This document shows, in pieces, positions 2,225 through 21,640 of a DNA stretch of 31,634 nt. Source of the DNA: a virus; the IMG/VR virus record IMGVR_UViG_3300032561_000085, positions 1 through 31,634 of that record; one strand, given 5' to 3'. The first letter of the stretch is position 1. Every line of letters begins with the position of its first letter. A model generated the notes under the pieces. The model ran no database searches. It saw only the letters and a list, made by a program, of their open reading frames with translations, and was not told the origin of the DNA. The translations under genes were made by a program, and so were the position numbers.

Positions 2225-3208
2225 TTAGCGGCTGCGGTTCATTTCGCGGAGGGCGGATTTGATGGCTTTCTCCAGTTCGGTGGAGTCCACCTTTTCTTTG
2301 CCTTCGAGGCGGGCGGCGATGCGGGCGACGAGGGAGTAGGCGCCGAAGCGGGTAGCTTCCTCGGCAATGCGGGCCAGGCCGGCGGCGCGGTCGTCGAATT
2401 GGCGCGGCGGGAAGAACGGGGCGAGGTCGTCGGCGGCGATAGTGGTGAGTCGGATCACGGCGTGTGTGCGGCGGTCGAGTTGGGAGGCTTCGAGGGGATA
2501 GTAGCGGTTCCATCGGTCATGGGCCTCGCTGATGGCCGCGAGGACAACCACGATGTTGGTCTTGTTGAGGATGAGCTTGAGGCCGTTCAGGGCGGCGGGG
2601 CCGAAATACTCGGCCTCGTCCACGGCGAGCAGGATGCGCTGATTGGTGGCGATGATGGCATCCTCGATGGGAGCGCGGCGGCGCTCGCCGTCGAGGCGGC
2701 AGGAGATGGCGCGGGCCACGTCCACCAGGAAGGTGGTGTAGGAGTCTTTCCAGGATTCACGGGACTCGACGACGCGGGCGTTGCATTTGGTGGCGAGCCA
2801 GGAGCAGAGCATGGTTTTGCCGCCGCCGGTGGGGGCGAGGTATTTGATGAGGCGCTCGGGGTTGCGTTTGGCGCGGGCGGCCTCGCAGGCTTTGCGGACG
2901 GCGGTGAACTGAGCGAGCTCGATGATTCCGGGCACATTGTTGGCGCGCTCGAATTGGGAGCGGAGCCGGGGCAGGTCGGCGAGGGCGGCGCGGAGCTGGT
3001 CCAGGATGGCGCGGCCAGCTTCGGGTGATACCTCGTCGAAATACGATTCTTTTTCCGGGTCAAGGGCGTCGGCGATCTTGGACCACTTGCTGACGGAGAA
3101 GGGCAGGTAGTCTCGCGCGAAGGCGGTTTGTGACGCCTCTTTGAGGGACTCGTCCCGCAGGGCGCTGATGAGGGCGAGGTTTTCGGCTGTGAGGATGCTA
3201 GCTTTCAT
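2225..3208 (-). CDS. MuB-like AAA+ ATPase, transposition target-selection protein
   Basis: 327 residues. MuB-type proteins form ATP-dependent filaments on target DNA, stimulate the transposase and provide target immunity. Walker A is APTGGGKT (residues 125-132), Walker B is ILLAVDEAE (192-200), and a DRR triplet near 245-247 fits an arginine-finger or sensor region. About 90 N-terminal residues are helical and probably hold the DNA-binding domain; the C-terminal 40 residues are a charged helical region. The gene lies directly downstream (38 bp) of the MuA-like transposase, the usual A-B order. Start ATG at 3208 has a C/A-rich leader without Shine-Dalgarno. Confidence 0.93.
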   Translation of the reverse strand: MKASILTAENLALISALRDESLKEASQTAFARDYLPFSVSKWSKIADALDPEKESYFDEVSPEAGRAILDQLRAALADLPRLRSQFERANNVPGIIELAQFTAVRKACEAARAKRNPERLIKYLAPTGGGKTMLCSWLATKCNARVVESRESWKDSYTTFLVDVARAISCRLDGERRRAPIEDAIIATNQRILLAVDEAEYFGPAALNGLKLILNKTNIVVVLAAISEAHDRWNRYYPLEASQLDRRTHAVIRLTTIAADDLAPFFPPRQFDDRAAGLARIAEEATRFGAYSLVARIAARLEGKEKVDSTELEKAIKSALREMNRSR

Positions 3209-3245: not shown

Positions 3246-5351
3246 TTAGTCCCAGGGCACTTCCGGGGTGGGGATTTCCTTGGCGAGCAGGTCGGTGGTG
3301 CAGTCGTCGGCGACGGTCTCCGCTATCACCACGGGCGCGGCGGGCTGGGCCACCGAGGCCAGGAGGCGCTGGTTGTGGGCGATCATCGCGGCCTTGTCGG
3401 CGGCCTGGTCGGGGTGGCGGAGGTCCAGGCGCTGGCGGCCCTGGGCCTCGAAGGAGCTTTGGACGCCGAGGGCGCGGTGGACGGAGTCCGGGTCGGTGCG
3501 GTCCACGGGATGGTAGCGCTCGCAGACGCAGACGACTTTGAGGCTGGCGCCGGATTCTTCGCAGGCCACCAGGTGGGTGGGCAGGAAGGGGTTCACGAAG
3601 CAGACGTATTCGGAGTCGTTTTTGAGGAAGGATCCGTCTGGACGGCGAGCGGTGAAGAAGAGCGGATCGGGGTCCACCTCGGCACACTCGAAGCTGAGGA
3701 TCCCGCGCTTCACGGGGAGGGGTTTGCGGCCACCGTTCAAAGCGTTCTCGCGGCCAACGAGTGATGGGATCATCTCGAAGGGCAATCGGGTAAGCTCGCG
3801 CGCGCCGGCGTCCCACACCTCGCGCCGGCTTAGGCGGATGGTCTTCACGAGGGATGGATCGGCATCGAGCATCGCCTGCACCACGCCACGCTGGGCGTCG
3901 GGAAGGGACTCGAAGGCGTGCCTCGGGAGCCACTGGTCTGCGGCGCCACCGATGCTGGGCATGCGCCAGACGGGCTGGACGAAGCCGAGACGTTCCCAGC
4001 CTTCGAGGTCGTGCTGGCGGTCGGTGTTAATGGCGTGGATGGCGGAGAGGGCGGCCTCGCGCCATTCATGCCAGGGCAGGAAGGGGAACTTACCCTGCGC
4101 GGGAGACAGGCCGGCAGAGGCGAAGGCGGCCATGGTGTTGGCCGTGTAGCGCTCGGCGCCGTGGAGCTGCTCGGGCGCTGAGTCACGGTCCTTGCCCACC
4201 TGGCCGAGGAGCATGGCGGTCTGGTTATCGATGGGGTTCCACCAGCCCTCGATCAACGCCTTGGTCCGGAAGTTGCCTTTGCTGCGGCCCTCGAATTGCC
4301 CGGAGTGGGCGGGCTTGCCGAACCGGCCGCCTACCTCGACGTGGACGTATTTCCCGAGGCACTCTTCGAGCCGGGACTTGAAGGGATCGCGGATGGCGGC
4401 AGTGCCGCGCTCGACAATCAGGTGCGTCCCAAATTTGTCGCGGCGGTAGCCGTAGCCGCACAGGCCTGCGATCACAAACCACATAAACTCCCGCTCGGTG
4501 AGCTTGCGCCGGACTTCGTCCTCGTAATCCCACAGGGTGGGTTTGAAGCCGGCGTGGAAGAGGCATCCCGAGAGGATATCGGCAGCCCCGAAGCCGAGCG
4601 GGCGCATGGGTTTTTGCTGAAAGAGCGATTTCTGGTTAAACTCATGGTCATCCAACTCCGTGTATTCGCCGACGTGGAGCGTGGTGCGGGTGGTGATGAC
4701 GGGGAAGCGGAGGAGGCTGGCCTTGCCGTGGCCGATGCGGGCGGCGGTGCGGTCGTAGGGGTCGGAGGCGAAGCGGCGGAGGTTGGCCTCGCTCCAGCCT
4801 TTGGGCAGGTCGGTGGCCGGGACGGCCTTTGGCCAGGCCGAATAACCGGGGATGGCGGTCCAGGTCTTTCCGGAGCGGTCCACGCCGGTGCGCCAGATCT
4901 GCACCATCTCATCAAAGGCCCCGCCTGAATTGCGCTGGTTGTTCTCGGTGATCCGGCGGTAGAAATCCAGGAACGCGCCACGGGTGGAGACCGGGGCCTG
5001 GTCGCCAAACTCCAGACCACGCAGGCCGGCCGCCTTGCTGTGGTTCAGGCAGATGCGCCAGTCGCCGGCCGGGTAGCCCTTGGGGTTCACCATGGAGCCG
5101 ATATACTGGTAGTATTTGGCGCGGAGGGTGTGGGCGGCCCAGGCGCGCTTGCCGGAGCGTTTCAGCTCGGCGGCAAGACGCCGGCAAGCCGTCTGCACCT
5201 TGGGCGCATGGTATATCTGCTCCATGGCGCGGAGCAGCCGCCGCGCATCGTGGATGGCATCCTCACCGACCAGGTAGGAGTGTGATTGGGCGTCCGCCGC
5301 GGGGATGTCAAAGCTGAGCGCGGCGGGTTTGGTTTCGAGGTCGGTGATCAT
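3246..5351 (-). CDS. MuA-like DDE transposase
   Basis: 701 residues, close to MuA (663). It should pair and cleave the phage ends and join them to target DNA. The N-terminal 200 residues are helical and basic (DNA binding). The RNase H-type core starts with ELDDHEF (Asp234/Asp235). The second acidic position falls in IVERGTAAI (Glu314), where relatives usually have Asp in a D-x-G context. The third is Glu368 in KALIEGWWN, preceded by RSKGNFR. GQVGKDRD (383-390) follows. After about residue 520 comes the beta-barrel region with PDGSFLKNDSEYVCFVN. It heads an A-B pair. The Glu314 in place of Asp is unusual. ATG 5351 is the first start after the previous gene. Confidence 0.93.
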   Translation of the reverse strand: MITDLETKPAALSFDIPAADAQSHSYLVGEDAIHDARRLLRAMEQIYHAPKVQTACRRLAAELKRSGKRAWAAHTLRAKYYQYIGSMVNPKGYPAGDWRICLNHSKAAGLRGLEFGDQAPVSTRGAFLDFYRRITENNQRNSGGAFDEMVQIWRTGVDRSGKTWTAIPGYSAWPKAVPATDLPKGWSEANLRRFASDPYDRTAARIGHGKASLLRFPVITTRTTLHVGEYTELDDHEFNQKSLFQQKPMRPLGFGAADILSGCLFHAGFKPTLWDYEDEVRRKLTEREFMWFVIAGLCGYGYRRDKFGTHLIVERGTAAIRDPFKSRLEECLGKYVHVEVGGRFGKPAHSGQFEGRSKGNFRTKALIEGWWNPIDNQTAMLLGQVGKDRDSAPEQLHGAERYTANTMAAFASAGLSPAQGKFPFLPWHEWREAALSAIHAINTDRQHDLEGWERLGFVQPVWRMPSIGGAADQWLPRHAFESLPDAQRGVVQAMLDADPSLVKTIRLSRREVWDAGARELTRLPFEMIPSLVGRENALNGGRKPLPVKRGILSFECAEVDPDPLFFTARRPDGSFLKNDSEYVCFVNPFLPTHLVACEESGASLKVVCVCERYHPVDRTDPDSVHRALGVQSSFEAQGRQRLDLRHPDQAADKAAMIAHNQRLLASVAQPAAPVVIAETVADDCTTDLLAKEIPTPEVPWD

Positions 5352-13165: not shown

Positions 13166-14971
13166 ATGAAACGGAATTCCAACAATAGGGGCCACCGCTC
13201 CCAGCCAGTAACACACCCGCAAGGGGGAGTGAAGGACAAGTGCGCTGGTGAAGTGGCCCCGCGGCCAGCGGCTGCAACGGAGGCGTCGGGGGCCGGCAGC
13301 GCCCCCGACGCCGAGACGCCGCCACGCTTTCCTCATAAAGTACAGAGCAATAAGGCCGAACCGGGCGGCCAGCCGGCGCGTCGCGACGCGCGGGCGAAGT
13401 CTCAAGGAAGGATGGGGCACCCGGTCAATTTGCCTTCGATTCAATGCAAGGAGGCTGTTGAGCAACTCCGAGCCCGGATCGAGGCCGCCCGCAAGACGGC
13501 GGGCGCGGGATTGAGGGATGTGCCGATTGACGAGCTGGAGAAGCGCGTAGCGACGCACACGCTGGGTGTGAATGCCAACGGATGGACCAATCCCTATCCG
13601 AAGGAGGATCCCCGGTCGCTGCTGCTGGAATACCAGTTCGCTTATCGCGAGGACAAGAGCCGGTTCAAGGCGGCTTTGATGGCGAGGCAGACGGGCAAGG
13701 ACTTTTCCAGCGAGAGCGAGGCGGCGGAGGATTGTCACCTGCGACCTAAGACGGATTGGATGATTGCGGCCCCAAGCGAGCGGCAGGCGCTGGATTCCCT
13801 GGACCAGGGCAAGACCTGGGCCGAGGCCTTCGACCTGCGCATCCATGACTACGCCGAGGAGCGCGAGGGCGGGAGCGGCACGCTGCTCAAGAGCGCCGAG
13901 ATCACCTTCTCCAATGGCAGCCGGATGCGCGCGGTGCCCGGCAAGCCGAACACCGTTCGCGGACGCGCCTCGAACCTGCTGTTGACCGAGTTCGACTTCT
14001 TCGAGAACGCGGCGGCGACGTGGCGAGCCATCCTGCCCAGCATCACGAACCCGCTTCGCGGCGGCGAAAAGAAGGTGCGGCTGGTCACCACGCCCAACGG
14101 CTCAGGCGGGGCGATGCACAAGATCTGGACGAAGCCGGACACGGCCGTCATGACGTGGAGCCGGCACCTGACGACGATCTACCACGCGGTGTTGATGGGA
14201 CTGCCGGTGAATGTGGCTCAGTTGCGAGAGGCGTTCGACGACCAGGACGGCTGGGCGCAGGAGTTTCTGTGCCAATTCCTCGACGGCTCGAACGTGCTCT
14301 TGCCCTACGACCTGGTGGCGCTGGCTGAGAGTGCCGAGGCCACCGAGGCGTGGGACCTGGCCGACGCGGGCAGCACGAACCCCTGCTATCTGGGGATCGA
14401 CTTCGGCCGTTCGAACGACCCCACGGTTTGCTGGACGCTCCAGCAGGTGGGAGACATCCTTTGGACGCGCGAGGTGCTGGTGCTCAAGAATGTGGCCACG
14501 CCGGACCAGGAGCAGATCCTCCGGAGCCGCATCCGGGGCGCGGCGCGGGTGTGCTTCGACTACACCGGGCCGGGCATCGGTCTGGGCGATTACATGGCGC
14601 GCGAGCACGGGCGATGGCATCCGGAGTCGCATGAGTTCGGCAAGATTGACCTGTGCACCTTCACCGCGAACTTCAAGCGGCTCATTTTCCCGAGGCTGCG
14701 GAAGCGGTTCGAAGCGCCGACGAAGCTGCGGATCCCGGTCTCGACGGTAATCCGCGAGGATCTGCATGAGATGCGGCAGATCATCTCGAACGGCGAGTAT
14801 AGCTACTGGAGCCCGCGCACCCAGCAGGGCCACAGTGACCGATGCACGGCGCTGGCGCTGGCCAGCCGGGCGGCGGGAGACGGCGCGGTGCCAATGCTGC
14901 CAAGGGCCTTCGCTGGCGGACGGCGAGGGAAGATCATCGCCGATCGGCGGAATAGGAGTGTGCTGGCATGA
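13166..14971 (+). CDS. Terminase large subunit (Mu gp28-like)
   Basis: 601 residues as drawn; packages phage DNA using ATPase and nuclease domains. Walker A variant MARQTGKD (172-179), Walker B-like LLLTEFDFF (271-279), coupling segment LVTTPNGSG (307-315). The RuvC-like nuclease has Asp412 (GIDFGRSNDPT), Asp465 (CFDYTGPG) and Asp558 (GHSDRCTALALA). The first 82 residues are low-complexity, match nothing in the family and overlie two perfect inverted repeats, so the true start may be near ATG 13412 or slightly later. Mu gp28 is 551 residues, fitting a shorter protein. It overlaps the portal start by 4 bases. Confidence 0.9.
   Translation: MKRNSNNRGHRSQPVTHPQGGVKDKCAGEVAPRPAAATEASGAGSAPDAETPPRFPHKVQSNKAEPGGQPARRDARAKSQGRMGHPVNLPSIQCKEAVEQLRARIEAARKTAGAGLRDVPIDELEKRVATHTLGVNANGWTNPYPKEDPRSLLLEYQFAYREDKSRFKAALMARQTGKDFSSESEAAEDCHLRPKTDWMIAAPSERQALDSLDQGKTWAEAFDLRIHDYAEEREGGSGTLLKSAEITFSNGSRMRAVPGKPNTVRGRASNLLLTEFDFFENAAATWRAILPSITNPLRGGEKKVRLVTTPNGSGGAMHKIWTKPDTAVMTWSRHLTTIYHAVLMGLPVNVAQLREAFDDQDGWAQEFLCQFLDGSNVLLPYDLVALAESAEATEAWDLADAGSTNPCYLGIDFGRSNDPTVCWTLQQVGDILWTREVLVLKNVATPDQEQILRSRIRGAARVCFDYTGPGIGLGDYMAREHGRWHPESHEFGKIDLCTFTANFKRLIFPRLRKRFEAPTKLRIPVSTVIREDLHEMRQIISNGEYSYWSPRTQQGHSDRCTALALASRAAGDGAVPMLPRAFAGGRRGKIIADRRNRSVLA
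13282..13312. repeat. Perfect 12-bp hairpin upstream of terminase core
   Basis: GGCGTCGGGGGC (13282-13293), 7-base loop, GCCCCCGACGCC (13301-13312). Very stable, with no T tract. It lies in the part of the terminase frame that looks non-coding, so it may be an mRNA structure controlling terminase translation or processing. Confidence 0.7.
13376..13391. repeat. 16-bp perfect palindrome before terminase core
   Basis: GCGCGTCGCGACGCGC is fully palindromic, 20 bp upstream of the alternative terminase start at 13412. It could be a protein-binding site or RNA structure. Confidence 0.6.
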
Positions 14972-17196
14972 AGAGCGCGAAACGAACCACAGGATTCCCC
15001 CCATCGCTCGCGGCCACGGCCACCGGCGCGGCGGCATCCACGGGCAACATCATCGAGCAGCCCATGGTAGCCCCGGCGCCGAAGCGCGGGGATCGGTTGA
15101 CCAGGTCGGGCACATCGTCGGGCCAGGCGGGGCAGATCGTTACTGCCGCGAACCGCTGGCGCGAGAACTACAACCCGCTGCGGGCGCTGACCATGCGCCG
15201 CGCCGTCGAGTTGCTGGAGCTCGGCCAGCGGGGCGATTATGCCTACCTGCAATGGGCGTTCCGGTTCATTGAACGGCGCTATCCGACGCTTTCAGCGCTG
15301 GTGACGCGGTGCGAAGCCCCGTTGAAAGAGTTCGACTGGCAGATCAAGATCAAGGCCACGCTGCCCAAAGGGGCGACGCCGGAGCAGGCGGAGGCGCAAA
15401 AGGGGTCTCTAGTGGCGGCTTACGAGCGCGTGGACAACCTCCGCGCGGCCATGGTCCATCTCCATAGCGCCGATTTCCGAGGCTACGCGCATCTCCAGAA
15501 GCACCGCGCGGCGGATGGATCGGTGTGCCATTTCGAGCCGCTGAATCAATGGTGCGTCTGCCGGGATGGACTGGAGGGGAACTGGTTCTGGAACCCGGAC
15601 AGCCGGTCCACCTCGCAGCCGCTGACGTTTCTGGGGAAAGAGTTCGCCATCGGTGGTGAGAATCTGCCGATCGAAGACTTTGTGGTCCGCGAATGTGCGA
15701 GGCCGATTGATGAGATCGGGCTGATCGGTCTCATCCGGTCCAACCTGGCCGAAAAGGACTGGGACGGTTTCCTCGAGATCTACGGCATCCCCGGCGGCGT
15801 GGTGACCATGCCGAGCAATGTGCCATCGGGCAAGGAAACGGAGTATGAGGCGGCGGCGAAGCTGATTGCCGAGGGCGGGAGCGGCGCCCTGCCGAACGGC
15901 TCGGACTACAAGCCGAACGACGCGCCGCGAGGCGTGGACCCCTTCACCCCGCGGCTCAAGCACCTGGATGAGCAATTGGTGATGGCCGGGACCGGCGGCC
16001 GGCTCACGATGCTGGCGGAGTCTGGCAGCGGCACACTGGCGGGCGGGGCGCATGAGAGCACGTTCAACGAGATCGCCAACGGACGGGCGCGCGAGATATC
16101 GGAGCTGATGCAGGCTCAGTTCGACGTTGAGGTGCTGGAACGGGAGCATCCGGGCGAGCCGGCGCTGGTGTATTTCTTATTTGGGGACGAGGAAGAGGAG
16201 GCATCCACCGAGCTTTGCAAGAACGTGCTGACGCTCAGCCAGGCGGGCAAGAAGGTGGAGACGGCGTGGCTGAGCGAGAAGCTGGGTTATCCGATCGAGG
16301 AAGCGGAAGAGCCGGAGGCGGCCGATCCCGAACAGACTTCCCCGGATGATCCGGATGCCGTTCCCATCATGAACCGCCGGGCGGTGTGGTTGATTTTGAA
16401 CGACGGCGGCAATCCGAACCATGACGAGGGCGGCAAGTTTGCCAGCGGCCCGGATTTGGCGGCCTTTCATGATAAGTCCCTTGGTCCAGGAGGACAGGAT
16501 CACCAAGTGGTGGCGTACCGTGCCGTGGATGCGGCCGAGGCGGAGCGCGTGAAGGCGGAGACCGGGATTGATGTTTCGGGGCATACCCACGCGGTGGACA
16601 ATTACGCACTTCGGCACATTCATTCCGAGCACGGCAACCCAGCAAGGGAAATGCCACGGGGCCAGGTGGCGGTGACGCGGGAAGATATTGCGGCGCTGCC
16701 GGAGACGATTTCGAAGGCGGATACGATTGAGCACGCGGGGCGGACAGGGATCGGGCGCGAGGGGATACGTTACACGCGCAAATCGGCGGGCACTACGGTG
16801 GTAGTCGAAGAGGTGCGCACCAAACGGAAGCAATTGGTGCCGGTGTCCATCGTGAAGTTTAAGAATCGGGCGACGATTGATGCTGGCAAGCCAACCCCAA
16901 CCTCTACGGCCTCACCGCTTCGCCCTGAAAGGAAGGTAATGCGCAATCGCGAGGAGGTCAAGGCCGGCCAAGCCTCGGTGGCCACGGCCGTGGCGGAGGA
17001 CCTGAGCCACGTCTTCGCGCGGCTGGAAAAGATTATAGCCATCGAGGATGACGGCGTCTTCACGGCCAAGCTCCAGGCATTCCTGGATGATTTCCCGAAG
17101 CTGAAACAGGATCTTCTGGCGGACCCGAGCGCGGCCAGGGCGTTGCAACCGGTGATTGCCGGGGCCTTTCTGCAAGGGCTGAAGGGGAAGCAATAG
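14968..17196 (+). CDS. Portal protein (DUF935, Mu gp29-like) with embedded BECR-type nuclease domain
   Basis: 742 residues. The DUF935 portal core covers about 55-470: NYNPLRALTMRRAVELLELG, KEFDWQIKIKA, FLEIYGIPGG, and NGRAREISELMQAQFD near the stem. Residues 480-500 hold the linker GNPNHDEGGKFASGP, seen before toxin domains in phage head proteins. Residues 510-632 resemble phage BECR-fold nucleases (Barnase-EndoU-ColicinE5/D-RelE-like): ALRHIHSEHGN, then GQVAVTREDIAALPE, then a beta-rich end (IRYTRKSAGTTVVVEEV). The portal-type tail (HVFARLEKI to the end) resumes near 680. So the nuclease is an insertion near the C-terminus, perhaps delivered with the DNA. No immunity gene is seen beside it. 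Confidence 0.86.
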   Translation: MKSAKRTTGFPPSLAATATGAAASTGNIIEQPMVAPAPKRGDRLTRSGTSSGQAGQIVTAANRWRENYNPLRALTMRRAVELLELGQRGDYAYLQWAFRFIERRYPTLSALVTRCEAPLKEFDWQIKIKATLPKGATPEQAEAQKGSLVAAYERVDNLRAAMVHLHSADFRGYAHLQKHRAADGSVCHFEPLNQWCVCRDGLEGNWFWNPDSRSTSQPLTFLGKEFAIGGENLPIEDFVVRECARPIDEIGLIGLIRSNLAEKDWDGFLEIYGIPGGVVTMPSNVPSGKETEYEAAAKLIAEGGSGALPNGSDYKPNDAPRGVDPFTPRLKHLDEQLVMAGTGGRLTMLAESGSGTLAGGAHESTFNEIANGRAREISELMQAQFDVEVLEREHPGEPALVYFLFGDEEEEASTELCKNVLTLSQAGKKVETAWLSEKLGYPIEEAEEPEAADPEQTSPDDPDAVPIMNRRAVWLILNDGGNPNHDEGGKFASGPDLAAFHDKSLGPGGQDHQVVAYRAVDAAEAERVKAETGIDVSGHTHAVDNYALRHIHSEHGNPAREMPRGQVAVTREDIAALPETISKADTIEHAGRTGIGREGIRYTRKSAGTTVVVEEVRTKRKQLVPVSIVKFKNRATIDAGKPTPTSTASPLRPERKVMRNREEVKAGQASVATAVAEDLSHVFARLEKIIAIEDDGVFTAKLQAFLDDFPKLKQDLLADPSAARALQPVIAGAFLQGLKGKQ

Positions 17197-17202
17197 ACAC
17201 GT

Positions 17203-18282
17203 ATGAATCCGAGCATTCTGAACCGAGAGTTTAAGCACCCGACCGATGGCTGGTACCAAATCGAGCCGGCGGGCGAGCATCCGAACCAGGCCAGCCGCGT
17301 AATGCAGGTGGTCGATGCGGAGGCGATCGAGAACATCGTAAACCGGTTCAACACGGATGCCGATGCCAGCAAGCTGTCTCACGGCACGGAGATGCTGGTG
17401 GACCACGAGCATTTCAAGCACGAGGAGGACAAGGAATCTCTCGCCTACGGGTGGCTCAACCGATTGCAGGCGCGCGCGGATGGCATCTACGGCCGCATCC
17501 GCTGGACGGCCACAGGCCAGCCGGCTGTGGACGGCGGCGATTATCGCTTTTTCTCCACGGAGTATGACCCGGCGGATCTCGAGATCCTCAACACCAGCGG
17601 TGAGACCCGGCGGATCCGGCCGATGCGGCTGGACGGGCTGACGCTCACTAACTCGCCTAACAACAAGGGCGGGCGCCCGATCACGAATCGCAGAGAACAA
17701 TTTCGCCAGGGCGCGGATGCCCCGGCGGACAAACAAACCGAAACCAAAGGAAAATTGATGAAGTCAGTAGCTACGAGACTTGGATTGTCCGCCGACGCGT
17801 CTGAAGAGGGCGTGTTGGCAGAGGTGACCAAGTTGCAGAATCGGGCGACGACGGCGGAAGCCGAACTCACGCCGCTCAAGAACCGGGCCACCGAACTGGA
17901 GGCCAACAACCAAACCCTGCTCGCTGAGCAGGTCGACGGCATGATGGACGCGCATGGCATCAAGGCCGAGGACAAGGTCCGCAACCGGCTTCGCCCGGTC
18001 TTGCTGGGCCTCAAGAACCGCGAGGACCGGACGGCCACCCTGGCCGATTTCGGATTCACTCCCGGCCTGGCCAAGAACCCGGCCGCTGGAGCCACGGGGC
18101 AGACCCGGCTGCACAATCGCGACACCAAGCCTCCCGGCACGGTGGCGGAACCGGACGCCAAGGGCGACGAGGCCAAGGCGACGAAGATCATGAATCGTGC
18201 GCTGGAAATCCAGAAGCAGGTGGGGAACACGCTGCCCACGGCTATCCGCCAGGCGCAGAACGAGGCCGCGAACGCGAGCTAG
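17203..18282 (+). CDS. Head maturation protease with fused scaffold (Mu I-like)
   Basis: 359 residues. Residues 1-165 form the protease, similar to Mu gpI: GTEMLVDHEHFK (61-72), LAYGWLNRLQARADGIYGRI (80-99), DYRFFSTEY (113-121, Ser118 a likely active-site residue) and LTLTNSPNNKG (147-156). From residue 186 on it is helical and coiled coil, the scaffold. It is expected to assemble the procapsid and then degrade the scaffold. It follows the portal by 6 bases, with no MuF gene between as there is in Mu. Confidence 0.86.
   Translation: MNPSILNREFKHPTDGWYQIEPAGEHPNQASRVMQVVDAEAIENIVNRFNTDADASKLSHGTEMLVDHEHFKHEEDKESLAYGWLNRLQARADGIYGRIRWTATGQPAVDGGDYRFFSTEYDPADLEILNTSGETRRIRPMRLDGLTLTNSPNNKGGRPITNRREQFRQGADAPADKQTETKGKLMKSVATRLGLSADASEEGVLAEVTKLQNRATTAEAELTPLKNRATELEANNQTLLAEQVDGMMDAHGIKAEDKVRNRLRPVLLGLKNREDRTATLADFGFTPGLAKNPAAGATGQTRLHNRDTKPPGTVAEPDAKGDEAKATKIMNRALEIQKQVGNTLPTAIRQAQNEAANAS
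17758..18282 (+). CDS. Nested in-frame scaffold protein (Mu Z-like)
   Basis: 174 residues from an internal ATG of the protease gene. AAAGGA (17746-17751) lies 6 bases before this ATG, one of the better ribosome binding sites in the late operon, and the preceding 20 residues are a low-complexity linker (DKQTETKGKL). In Mu, scaffold Z is made in the same way from within gene I. The product has a coiled coil (LQNRATTAEAELTPLKNRATELEANN) and a C-terminal helix. Internal initiation is inferred, not proven. Confidence 0.65.
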   Translation: MKSVATRLGLSADASEEGVLAEVTKLQNRATTAEAELTPLKNRATELEANNQTLLAEQVDGMMDAHGIKAEDKVRNRLRPVLLGLKNREDRTATLADFGFTPGLAKNPAAGATGQTRLHNRDTKPPGTVAEPDAKGDEAKATKIMNRALEIQKQVGNTLPTAIRQAQNEAANAS

Positions 18283-18837: not shown

Positions 18838-19782
18838 ATGGCAGAATCAAGACTAGCGGCACTGGCGACGAGCCCGCTGCTGCAAAACTTCGCCATCACG
18901 GCGAGCCAAAAGGCCATCCGGCCGATTGGTCAGTTCCTCGCGCCCATTTGCGAGGTGCCTGACATCACGTTCCGGTACAAGAAGTACACGGAAGACAACC
19001 GCTACCGGGTGCCGAACACCAAGCGCCAGCCGGGCGCCAAGGCCACGGTGCTGGGGTTTGCGGCGGACGACATCAGCCAGACGCTCGAACCGAACGCGCT
19101 GGACTTCCCCATCCCGAATGTGGAGCAGCTCTCGGACGAGGGCCTGCAATATGCGCTGATGGAAGCGCAGACGGTGCTGGCCGATGCCTCGGCCCTGGCG
19201 CTGGAAAACGAGATCGTGCAGTACGCGCAGACGGCGGCGCTGGCCTCCTCGCTCACGCAGGCGGTGGACTTCACGAACACCCAACTCGACCCGGTGCCGA
19301 TCATCGATGCGATGATCCTGGCCGTGGCCAAGGCGAGCAAGAACGGCGCGCCGGTGAAGGTCCTGTTCGGGACGACCAAGTTCAAGCAGTTCCGGAACAA
19401 CCCGAACGTCACCAGCCGGTACAAGGTGACCACGGGCGCCAACAAGGGCTCGCTGGGCATTGTGTCGCCGACGATCCAGGACGTGGGCGGGCTGTTTATC
19501 ACGAACCCGGATGTCGAGCTGAGCATGATGGTGATCGACCAGTCGGCTCCCGGCACGACCGAGAACATCCAGTTCCTGCTGGACTCGATCCTCATCGTGT
19601 TCGCCAGCAACTCGGCGCCGAACCGGATGGATCCGTCGTTCATGAAGACGTTTGCCCGCATGGGCGGCTTCTTCCGGAGCGGGTCCTACACCACGGAGGA
19701 CCAACGGGACCAGGTCCTCAAGATGGATTGGACGACCCTGCCGGCCGTGACGAACACGGCGGCCGTGGCGGCCATCAAGTAA
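18838..19782 (+). CDS. Major capsid protein
   Basis: 314 residues, the likely main head subunit (HK97-type fold expected). Features typical of a capsid family of Mu-like prophages that differs from Mu gpT: an N-terminal region followed by IGQFLAPICEVPDITFRYKKY, then RVPNTKRQPGA, then LDFPIPNVEQ. The middle has the spine helix and PVKVLFGTTKFKQFRNNP. The C-terminal beta segments contain FARMGGFFRSGSY. It follows protease, scaffold and decoration genes in standard order. Confidence 0.87.
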   Translation: MAESRLAALATSPLLQNFAITASQKAIRPIGQFLAPICEVPDITFRYKKYTEDNRYRVPNTKRQPGAKATVLGFAADDISQTLEPNALDFPIPNVEQLSDEGLQYALMEAQTVLADASALALENEIVQYAQTAALASSLTQAVDFTNTQLDPVPIIDAMILAVAKASKNGAPVKVLFGTTKFKQFRNNPNVTSRYKVTTGANKGSLGIVSPTIQDVGGLFITNPDVELSMMVIDQSAPGTTENIQFLLDSILIVFASNSAPNRMDPSFMKTFARMGGFFRSGSYTTEDQRDQVLKMDWTTLPAVTNTAAVAAIK

Positions 19783-20821: not shown

Positions 20822-21640
20822 ATGGATATCGTCACCCCAATTGAATTCTCGGAGGCCATTGACCAGTGGCTGGCCAGGGTGACGTTGCCGACTGGCCTGG
20901 ACAGCGCCACCATCAAACAGCAGATCTCGGCCGCCATCCGGCGGCAGAGCGTGTTCAGCGCTGAAACGATGATGGAAGGCTACCTGGACCGAATCCAGAG
21001 CACGTTGGCCAGTGTGATCCAGCCCAAACAGGAGCTAAGGACCGATGAAACCGGCGCCACGAAGACCGTCATCACCGGACACAATCCGGCCACGGCGCGG
21101 GAGGCGCTGCGGAATGCGCTCCGATCGGAAGGCTATCGTCCGGCGGAAGACATCAAAGGCACGATCAAGGACCTGAGCAGCGACGCGCGGCTCAACCTGG
21201 TGGTAAAAACCAACACCGACCTGGCCCAGGGCGCGGGCAAGTACGTGCAATCCAATCTCGACGAGGACGTGATCGAGCTTTATCCGGCGTGGGAATTGGT
21301 CCGCTACGAGAAGCGATCGACGCCGCGGGACTGGGAGCAGCGCTGGAGGATCGCGGCCCAGGTGGCGGGCGATGCCCAGGCCAATGCCTGTCTCGGGCTC
21401 TACGGACGCATGTGCGCGCTCAAGAGCAGCGAGATCTGGGAGCAACTCGGTGAGGGCGCCGGCGGCTATACGGATACCCTCGATAACCCCTATCCGCCCT
21501 TCGCTTTCAACTCGGGCATGTGGACCGATGATGTATCGAGGGACGACGCGCAATCATTGGGATTGCTCGAAGAGGGTGACCAGGTGAAGCCCAAGATCCT
21601 CGATATCGCCAAACTGTTCGGATTGGGGGGTGAGTCATGA
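20822..21640 (+). CDS. MuF-like minor head protein
   Basis: 272 residues from ATG 20822, four bases after the adaptor stop. EFSEAIDQWLARVTLPTGLDS and FSAETMMEGYLD are N-terminal helices; SDARLNLVVKTNTDLAQGAGKY, then YPAWELVRYEKRSTPRDWEQ RW, later ALKSSEIWEQLGEG and NPYPPFAFNSGMW show the MuF-type order (internal helix with T-N, 'PAwELvR', then 'PyPPF...SGm'). MuF-type proteins enter the head or are injected with DNA. In Mu, MuF lies between portal and protease; here it lies after the adaptor. Confidence 0.7.
   Translation: MDIVTPIEFSEAIDQWLARVTLPTGLDSATIKQQISAAIRRQSVFSAETMMEGYLDRIQSTLASVIQPKQELRTDETGATKTVITGHNPATAREALRNALRSEGYRPAEDIKGTIKDLSSDARLNLVVKTNTDLAQGAGKYVQSNLDEDVIELYPAWELVRYEKRSTPRDWEQRWRIAAQVAGDAQANACLGLYGRMCALKSSEIWEQLGEGAGGYTDTLDNPYPPFAFNSGMWTDDVSRDDAQSLGLLEEGDQVKPKILDIAKLFGLGGES

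Follow-up and report, generated by a model that had tools for sequence, protein, structure and literature searches.

A predicted BECR-type domain inserted between the core and tail of a Mu-type phage portal protein

Fusions to MuF and portal domains were described by Iyer et al. in 2017 as the simplest PBECR architectures, and the portal fusions are read as packaged and injected (PMC5512222). Domains of the 2H, Nudix, and ART types have likewise been listed on portals and read as packaged and injected (PMC9503650). Of the 512 residues of gp29 in phage Mu, the last 124 are not found in the virion; the authors credit their absence to protease I (PMC11915804). In the related phage JBD30, both the crown and the wing of the portal are located within the capsid (PMC11445458). 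Effectors on MuF are widely discussed; for head-borne effectors, how many copies are present, how they are released, and with what timing they act is poorly defined. Here, we compare with these systems a Mu-type portal gene of an uncultivated virus, whose product is predicted to carry a PBECR3 domain between its core and its C-terminal tail.

The portal gene and its genomic setting

The window, that is, the whole stretch of DNA that was analyzed, is a single uncultivated virus record of 31.6 kb. It contains an intact plus-strand ORF of 742 aa (14968..17196), whose ATG at 14968 overlaps the stop of the preceding ORF, the terminase large subunit (13166..14971, plus strand; PF03237, 26.8 bits, cut-off 22). 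Residues 98 to 440 of the 742-aa product (15259..16287, plus strand) match the Pfam profile Portal_Mu (PF06074, 100.5 bits, cut-off 23.9); this core also has a sequence match to the solved portals 8rka and 9khx, and hhalign pairs it with Mu gp29 at an E value of 8e-15. By Pfam profile and hhalign, the product is thus classified as a Mu-type portal, in agreement with the carrier named in an earlier reading of the sequence alone (the sequence-only reading).

The candidate releasing protease, a 359-aa homologue of Mu-like protease I/scaffold (17203..18282, plus strand; PF10123, 92 bits; PHROG head maturation protease), is encoded 6 bp past the portal ORF and is followed by the capsid genes, and, as had been remarked from the sequence, no adjacent immunity gene is visible. 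A gene of 141 aa lies between the protease and the major head protein (18838..19782, plus strand; PHROG 1005, E value of 3e-22), in the same place as a 143-aa gene of an Akkermansia phage. Just upstream of the portal gene of an Akkermansia phage is a tRNA-gene-like sequence (L011:4771-4850), so described by resemblance only and not by a tRNA finder. Pfam gave no match to PF04233 (MuF) in the portal ORF or anywhere in the record. Loss of MuF was considered as an explanation and rejected, because a diverged MuF-like minor head protein gene lacking a toxin domain sits past the capsid gene, at approximately 20822..21640 (plus strand); its presence is the one correction to the sequence-only reading of the locus. 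Its product is 31% identical by BLASTP over 205 columns to a homologue in an Akkermansia phage, which itself matches a minor head PHROG, and hhalign relates it to MuF proteins with a probability of 80.5% and an E value of 1e-5.

A MuB-like DNA transposition protein encoded on the minus strand (2225-3208) points to a transposable, temperate phage. Beside it, a 701-aa minus-strand ORF (3246-5351) has no match in Pfam, PHROG, or NCBIfam and, judged by position, would be a diverged transposase. No NCBIfam family matched the portal, MuF-like, or replication-end proteins, and no PADLOC family matched the portal or the adjoining small genes. Relatives of the portal were found in Verrucomicrobiota assemblies, including a Limisphaerales, a Verrucomicrobia, and an Akkermansia MAG, which makes a verrucomicrobial bacterium the most likely host; a search for the host through PBECR3 in genome contigs gave no confirmed relative, and the phylum came from the portal instead.

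The PBECR3 domain, its insertion, and its linker

The sequence-only reading had placed a nuclease-like region at portal residues about 510 to 632 and had proposed a fold prediction and a PBECR profile search. The profile search located PF18812 (PBECR3) at residues 520 to 627 (16525..16848, plus strand) with 55.4 bits against a cut-off of 30 (E value of 7e-15), and the domain also exceeds the Pfam cut-off in two near-identical IMG/VR contigs, L002 and L003 (51.9 bits in the L002 orthologue). PBECR3 homologues were gathered from virus contigs, and 20 were aligned (alignment A6). Eight residues are invariant across these 20 sequences (H555, G556, E561, R564, G565, Q566, A568, and V569), including the RGQ motif R564-G565-Q566 (codons at 16657..16665) and the helix histidine H555 (16630..16632; alignments A4 and A6), the predicted catalytic residue; H550 (16615..16617) is nearly invariant, so that the conserved histidine expected near residue 550 is retained. 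The predicted active-site alcohol, S627 (16846..16848), falls in a column with Ser or Thr in all 19 of the 20 rows that reach it. In the structural model, H550 and H555 lie within a predicted helix (545 to 555) and S627 lies in the final strand, and this residue pattern matches the active-site configuration of Iyer et al.

The AlphaFold2 model of the domain, built on the A6 alignment (pLDDT 93, pTM 0.85), consists of helices followed by four strands, the order by which the BECR fold is recognized (a helix, then four to five strands). BECR RNases came out on top when the model was compared with the PDB by VIA-align: the leading matches were BrnT (Z 8.3), a Salmonella toxin-antitoxin toxin (7.1), and CdiA-CT (7.0), with colicin D (6.7), 3ao9, the C-terminal domain of a sequence-specific ribonuclease (5.5), and RelE (5.2) further down. 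A Z score of 7 to 8 can by itself reflect a common arrangement, but here one RNase fold prevails among the matches, in agreement with Pfam. Foldseek against the PDB gave weak matches with RelE ranked first (E value of 0.08), and the fold call is based on VIA-align together with Pfam. A sequence-profile search of A6 against the PDB returned a weak match to a designed TIM barrel, which was ignored. Among viral models, the domain was matched best by large phage proteins that bear the name nuclease or ADP-ribosyltransferase. Profile and model together support a BECR-type domain with its predicted active-site residues intact at residues 520 to 627, which is probably an RNA-cutting enzyme.

Comparison with related portals (alignment A7) delimits the insertion. 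In the portals of L057, L058, and L059 (47, 40, and 40% identity), the core is joined directly to a helical tail, and the stretch corresponding to residues ~478 to 668 (16399..16971, plus strand) is missing. The C termini of these portals align with residues 669 to 742 of the window portal (16972..17193, plus strand), which confirms the earlier observation that portal-type sequence resumes after the nuclease-like region. The tail alone is matched by tblastn in two Verrucomicrobiota genomes, G389 (query 649-738, E value of 6e-7) and G234 (query 667-741, E value of 4e-6), and in G234 a core match (query 63-444) lies ~117 bases from the tail match. Since sister portals keep core and tail but lack residues ~478 to 668, the sequence comparison identifies the PBECR3 stretch as a true internal insertion. 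Third-position GC is 0.68 in residues 478 to 660 and 0.83 in the core, consistent with later acquisition of the insert. The same domain order was found in only one other lineage, L002 and L003, whose portal is 67% identical. Between the window and L002, the PBECR part is 77% identical (dN 0.17) and the portal core is 68% identical (dN 0.26), with dS close to saturation.

Among the PBECR3 homologues gathered here, MuF is the commonest carrier: in many phages, the domain forms the C terminus of a MuF or minor capsid protein, and it also occurs in portal-MuF fusions (L043 and L048), in giant multidomain proteins, and, in Rhizobium phage RHph_N28_2, as a 119-aa gene directly after the portal gene. 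In the Verrucomicrobiota genome G216, a prophage has a portal that is free of BECR domains, together with a MuF-like protein of 411 aa that ends in a PBECR3-like C terminus (24.9 bits, under the Pfam cut-off). The portal of the Verrucomicrobiota genome G221 (L160:2897-4975, minus strand) has Portal_Mu and then PBECR3 at its extreme C terminus, past the tail, and in the domain tree the portal-borne PBECR3 domains of the window, L002, and G221 cluster together (98/71; 99% of bootstrap trees). Inspection of 44 further portals of the lineage revealed C-terminal PBECR1-like domains in seven and PBECR2 in one; these lie past the tail in portals of Mu-like prophages in Verrucomicrobiota genomes (L138, L140, L141, L143, L146, L147, and L149; L142), where L138 and L140 are just under the PBECR1 cut-off and L141, L143, and L149 were assigned by similarity to L138/L140. 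RDxxGxF-type linkers are present in the portals of L138, L140, L141, and L143. Thus, the view that BECR domains reside mainly on MuF holds as a tendency, but by these sequence assignments a BECR domain on the portal is a recurring theme in the lineage, and what is unusual is its location between core and tail. No support was obtained for reading the C-terminal domain of the L083 portal-MuF fusion as a BECR domain. Two further architectures were observed: an intein-like sequence, below Pfam cut-offs, inside a MuF-PBECR3 protein (L049:4087-6354) and a Mu-type portal fused in frame to the N-terminal part of a Mu-like protease I (L130:1540-3564).

The insert opens with a linker, NPNHDEGGKFASG (residues 482 to 494; 16411..16449, plus strand), of the type NPNHDExGxFASG, which is conserved in L002 and recurs elsewhere, both in effectors and in head proteins of phages. 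In IMG/VR, 30 stretches matched a DNA pattern for NPNHDExGxFA; Pfam found a head-protein or effector domain in 15 of the 19 ORFs scanned beyond L002, and it is on the nature of these carriers, not on chance frequency against shuffled sequence, that the weight of the linker rests. The carriers include portals (L072, L078, and L083), MuF proteins (L074, L080, L084, and L086), S78 prohead proteases (L075 and L097), a ClpP-type protease (L070), ADP-ribosyltransferases (L074, L084, L087, L089, L094, and L095; L084 just under cut-off), and the anti-CBASS protein Acb1 (L093). A literature search for five literal variants of the linker found no paper printing them. Within single polypeptides, several linker copies can stand between modules, as in a 1,444-aa MuF protein (L080:1083-5414, minus strand; also in L009) in which four to five of them accompany a PI3/PI4-kinase-like domain. 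Polyvalent proteins (Iyer 2017) are defined by more than one effector domain on a single chain that is transferred along with the DNA; the window portal holds one effector domain, and L002 adds a second linker and a further cassette: its portal is 898 aa long and continues past the tail with a second linker-like stretch, HPRDESGKFSES (HPRDESGKF; L002:8287-8661), and a helical cassette rich in His and Ala. Helical stretches of a similar kind come after the linker in L070, L075, L076, and L097, and the prohead protease of L075 contains a Hint/LAGLIDADG-like sequence below Pfam cut-offs (L075:924-4550). In L093, an open ORF (L093:6471-8129) has its Acb1 domain (125 bits) flanked by two linker motifs; if the linker marks delivered cassettes, this Acb1 protein would be a virion-linked counter-defence.

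Proposed release and delivery weighed against other explanations

The model we prefer, and in which we place about even confidence, is that the portal serves as the carrier of the RNase domain, with twelve copies loaded per head, clipped free, and ejected with the DNA. Twelve portal subunits, each with PBECR3 between core and tail, would form the portal ring during head assembly, with the extra sequence facing the prohead interior. The neighboring Mu-I-type protease would then cut each subunit past the core, near residues 427 to 440, and free a linker-PBECR3-tail fragment inside the head; this fragment would exit with the DNA and cut RNA in the newly infected cell, which may aid early takeover or blunt RNA-dependent defence. 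In the hhalign alignment, Mu residue 403 is paired with window residue 442, which puts the Mu boundary (~388) at about window residue 427, and the segment corresponding to the missing part of Mu gp29 takes in the linker, PBECR3, and the tail alike. This comparison with Mu supports a location of the insert within a protease-clipped segment, and, as a protease I homologue adjoins the portal gene, clip-and-eject is the simplest model; delivery with the genome, which the sequence-only reading had raised, is plausible and strengthened by the clipped position. The missing density in the Mu portal may instead reflect disorder, and a free PBECR3 fragment might leave the prohead with the scaffold ahead of DNA packaging, which counts against delivery. 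An attempt to place PBECR3 in the portal dodecamer from a full-length model (pLDDT 57) was dropped as too uncertain.

PBECR3 could instead bind RNA or DNA, as a packaged or tethered module that lacks nuclease activity and acts in structure or assembly. Such a role was proposed by Iyer et al. for the inactive PBECR on Mu gp30 (MuF) (PMC5512222), and the carrier is an essential structural protein that assembles in the living host; however, the predicted active-site His and Ser/Thr are kept family-wide, and the domain is conserved at least as well as the portal core, so that we consider this account unlikely. It appears quite unlikely that the RNase stays undelivered and acts late in the producing cell, at the stage of assembly or lysis, on RNA of the host or of competing phages, which takes in the competing-phage idea of the sequence-only reading. 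The portal gene is late and no immunity gene adjoins it, but an active RNase made alongside the capsid proteins would harm the phage's own late translation, and PBECR is repeatedly seen on head proteins that become part of the virion (as also in PMC5512222). An artificial origin, either an assembly chimera or a random frame fusion, has hardly any probability: the window is one virus record, but the 67%-identical protein with the same domain order is present on two other contigs, and the protein-coding pattern across the joint is under purifying selection (window versus L002).

The MuF toxin model (PMC5576092) suggests a polymorphic competition toxin, by which virions released from lysogens would poison nonimmune neighbors while lysogens keep an immunity gene, and the lineage exchanges BECR families on the portal as polymorphic toxins do. 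In MuF toxin genes, a small ORF lies just downstream in 89% of cases (PMC5576092), whereas the gene that follows here is the protease, in the window and L002 and, to judge from its size and position, also in L160. Three related loci yielded no recognizable candidate for an immunity gene, and we regard a competition toxin as decidedly improbable. Portal genes are late genes, expressed once the cell is committed to lysis; because of this timing and the lack of a candidate at the three loci, the lysogen's need for an immunity gene, raised by the sequence-only reading, is a weak worry. That no immunity gene could be recognized is easier to reconcile with an effector expressed late and injected than with a competition toxin.

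Under the preferred delivery model, the portal carrier would set the effector dose at twelve per head, and location in a segment that Mu seems to lose by proteolysis offers a concrete, testable release step. More tentatively, and with less than even confidence, the C-terminal part of Mu-type portals that the protease would remove may be a general loading bay for swapped effector cassettes (PBECR1, PBECR2, PBECR3, and others), often attached through linkers (NPNHDExGxFASG or RDxxGxF), present in twelve copies per head, cut free, and injected. This would suggest what the C-terminal part of Mu-type portals, otherwise unexplained, is used for. If it is true, the linker family, which elsewhere also joins ARTs and Acb1, would be a recognizable sign of virion-delivered cassettes, and the motif is a possible handle for finding more virion-delivered counter-defence or takeover proteins.

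Comparison with described systems

The PBECR3 model shares its fold, by VIA-align (Z 5 to 8), with BrnT, RelE, colicin D, and CdiA-CT, but those RNases are toxins of toxin-antitoxin, bacteriocin, or CDI systems, have immunity partners, and are not virion parts; unlike the RelE and BrnT toxin-antitoxin systems, the window portal gene has no adjacent antitoxin gene and is flanked by terminase and protease genes. With the MuF toxins (Jamet et al. 2017, PMC5576092), it has in common an effector on a portal-associated head protein of temperate phages, whereas its carrier is the portal itself, which lacks a MuF domain, and there is no small ORF downstream that resembles an immunity gene. Mu gp29 belongs to the same portal family, and the same protease family stands beside the head genes (PMC11915804); gp29 has no nuclease there, and the PBECR-like domain of Mu resides on gp30 (MuF) and is described as inactive.

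Within the window's own portal lineage, the G221 portal (L160) likewise combines Portal_Mu with PBECR3, but with PBECR3 C-terminal, past the tail, and the PBECR1 and PBECR2 portals listed above carry BECR in the C-terminal part, from another BECR family and again past the tail. The closest described counterparts are the PBECR-portal and PBECR-MuF fusions of Iyer et al., in which the same superfamily stands on a tailed-phage head or portal protein as a predicted packaged, injected RNase; the window portal differs in having PBECR3 between core and tail and no MuF domain in the ORF, and the text of Iyer et al. is silent on where PBECR sits within portals. The PBECR-portal fusion as a kind has thus been known since 2017. 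The fold, active-site residues, and portal carrier proposed by the sequence-only reading are supported; its immunity concern is weak. What is new here is the internal position of the domain, its correspondence to the segment apparently removed by the protease in Mu, an ORF that lacks MuF, the shared linker, and a testable delivery model.
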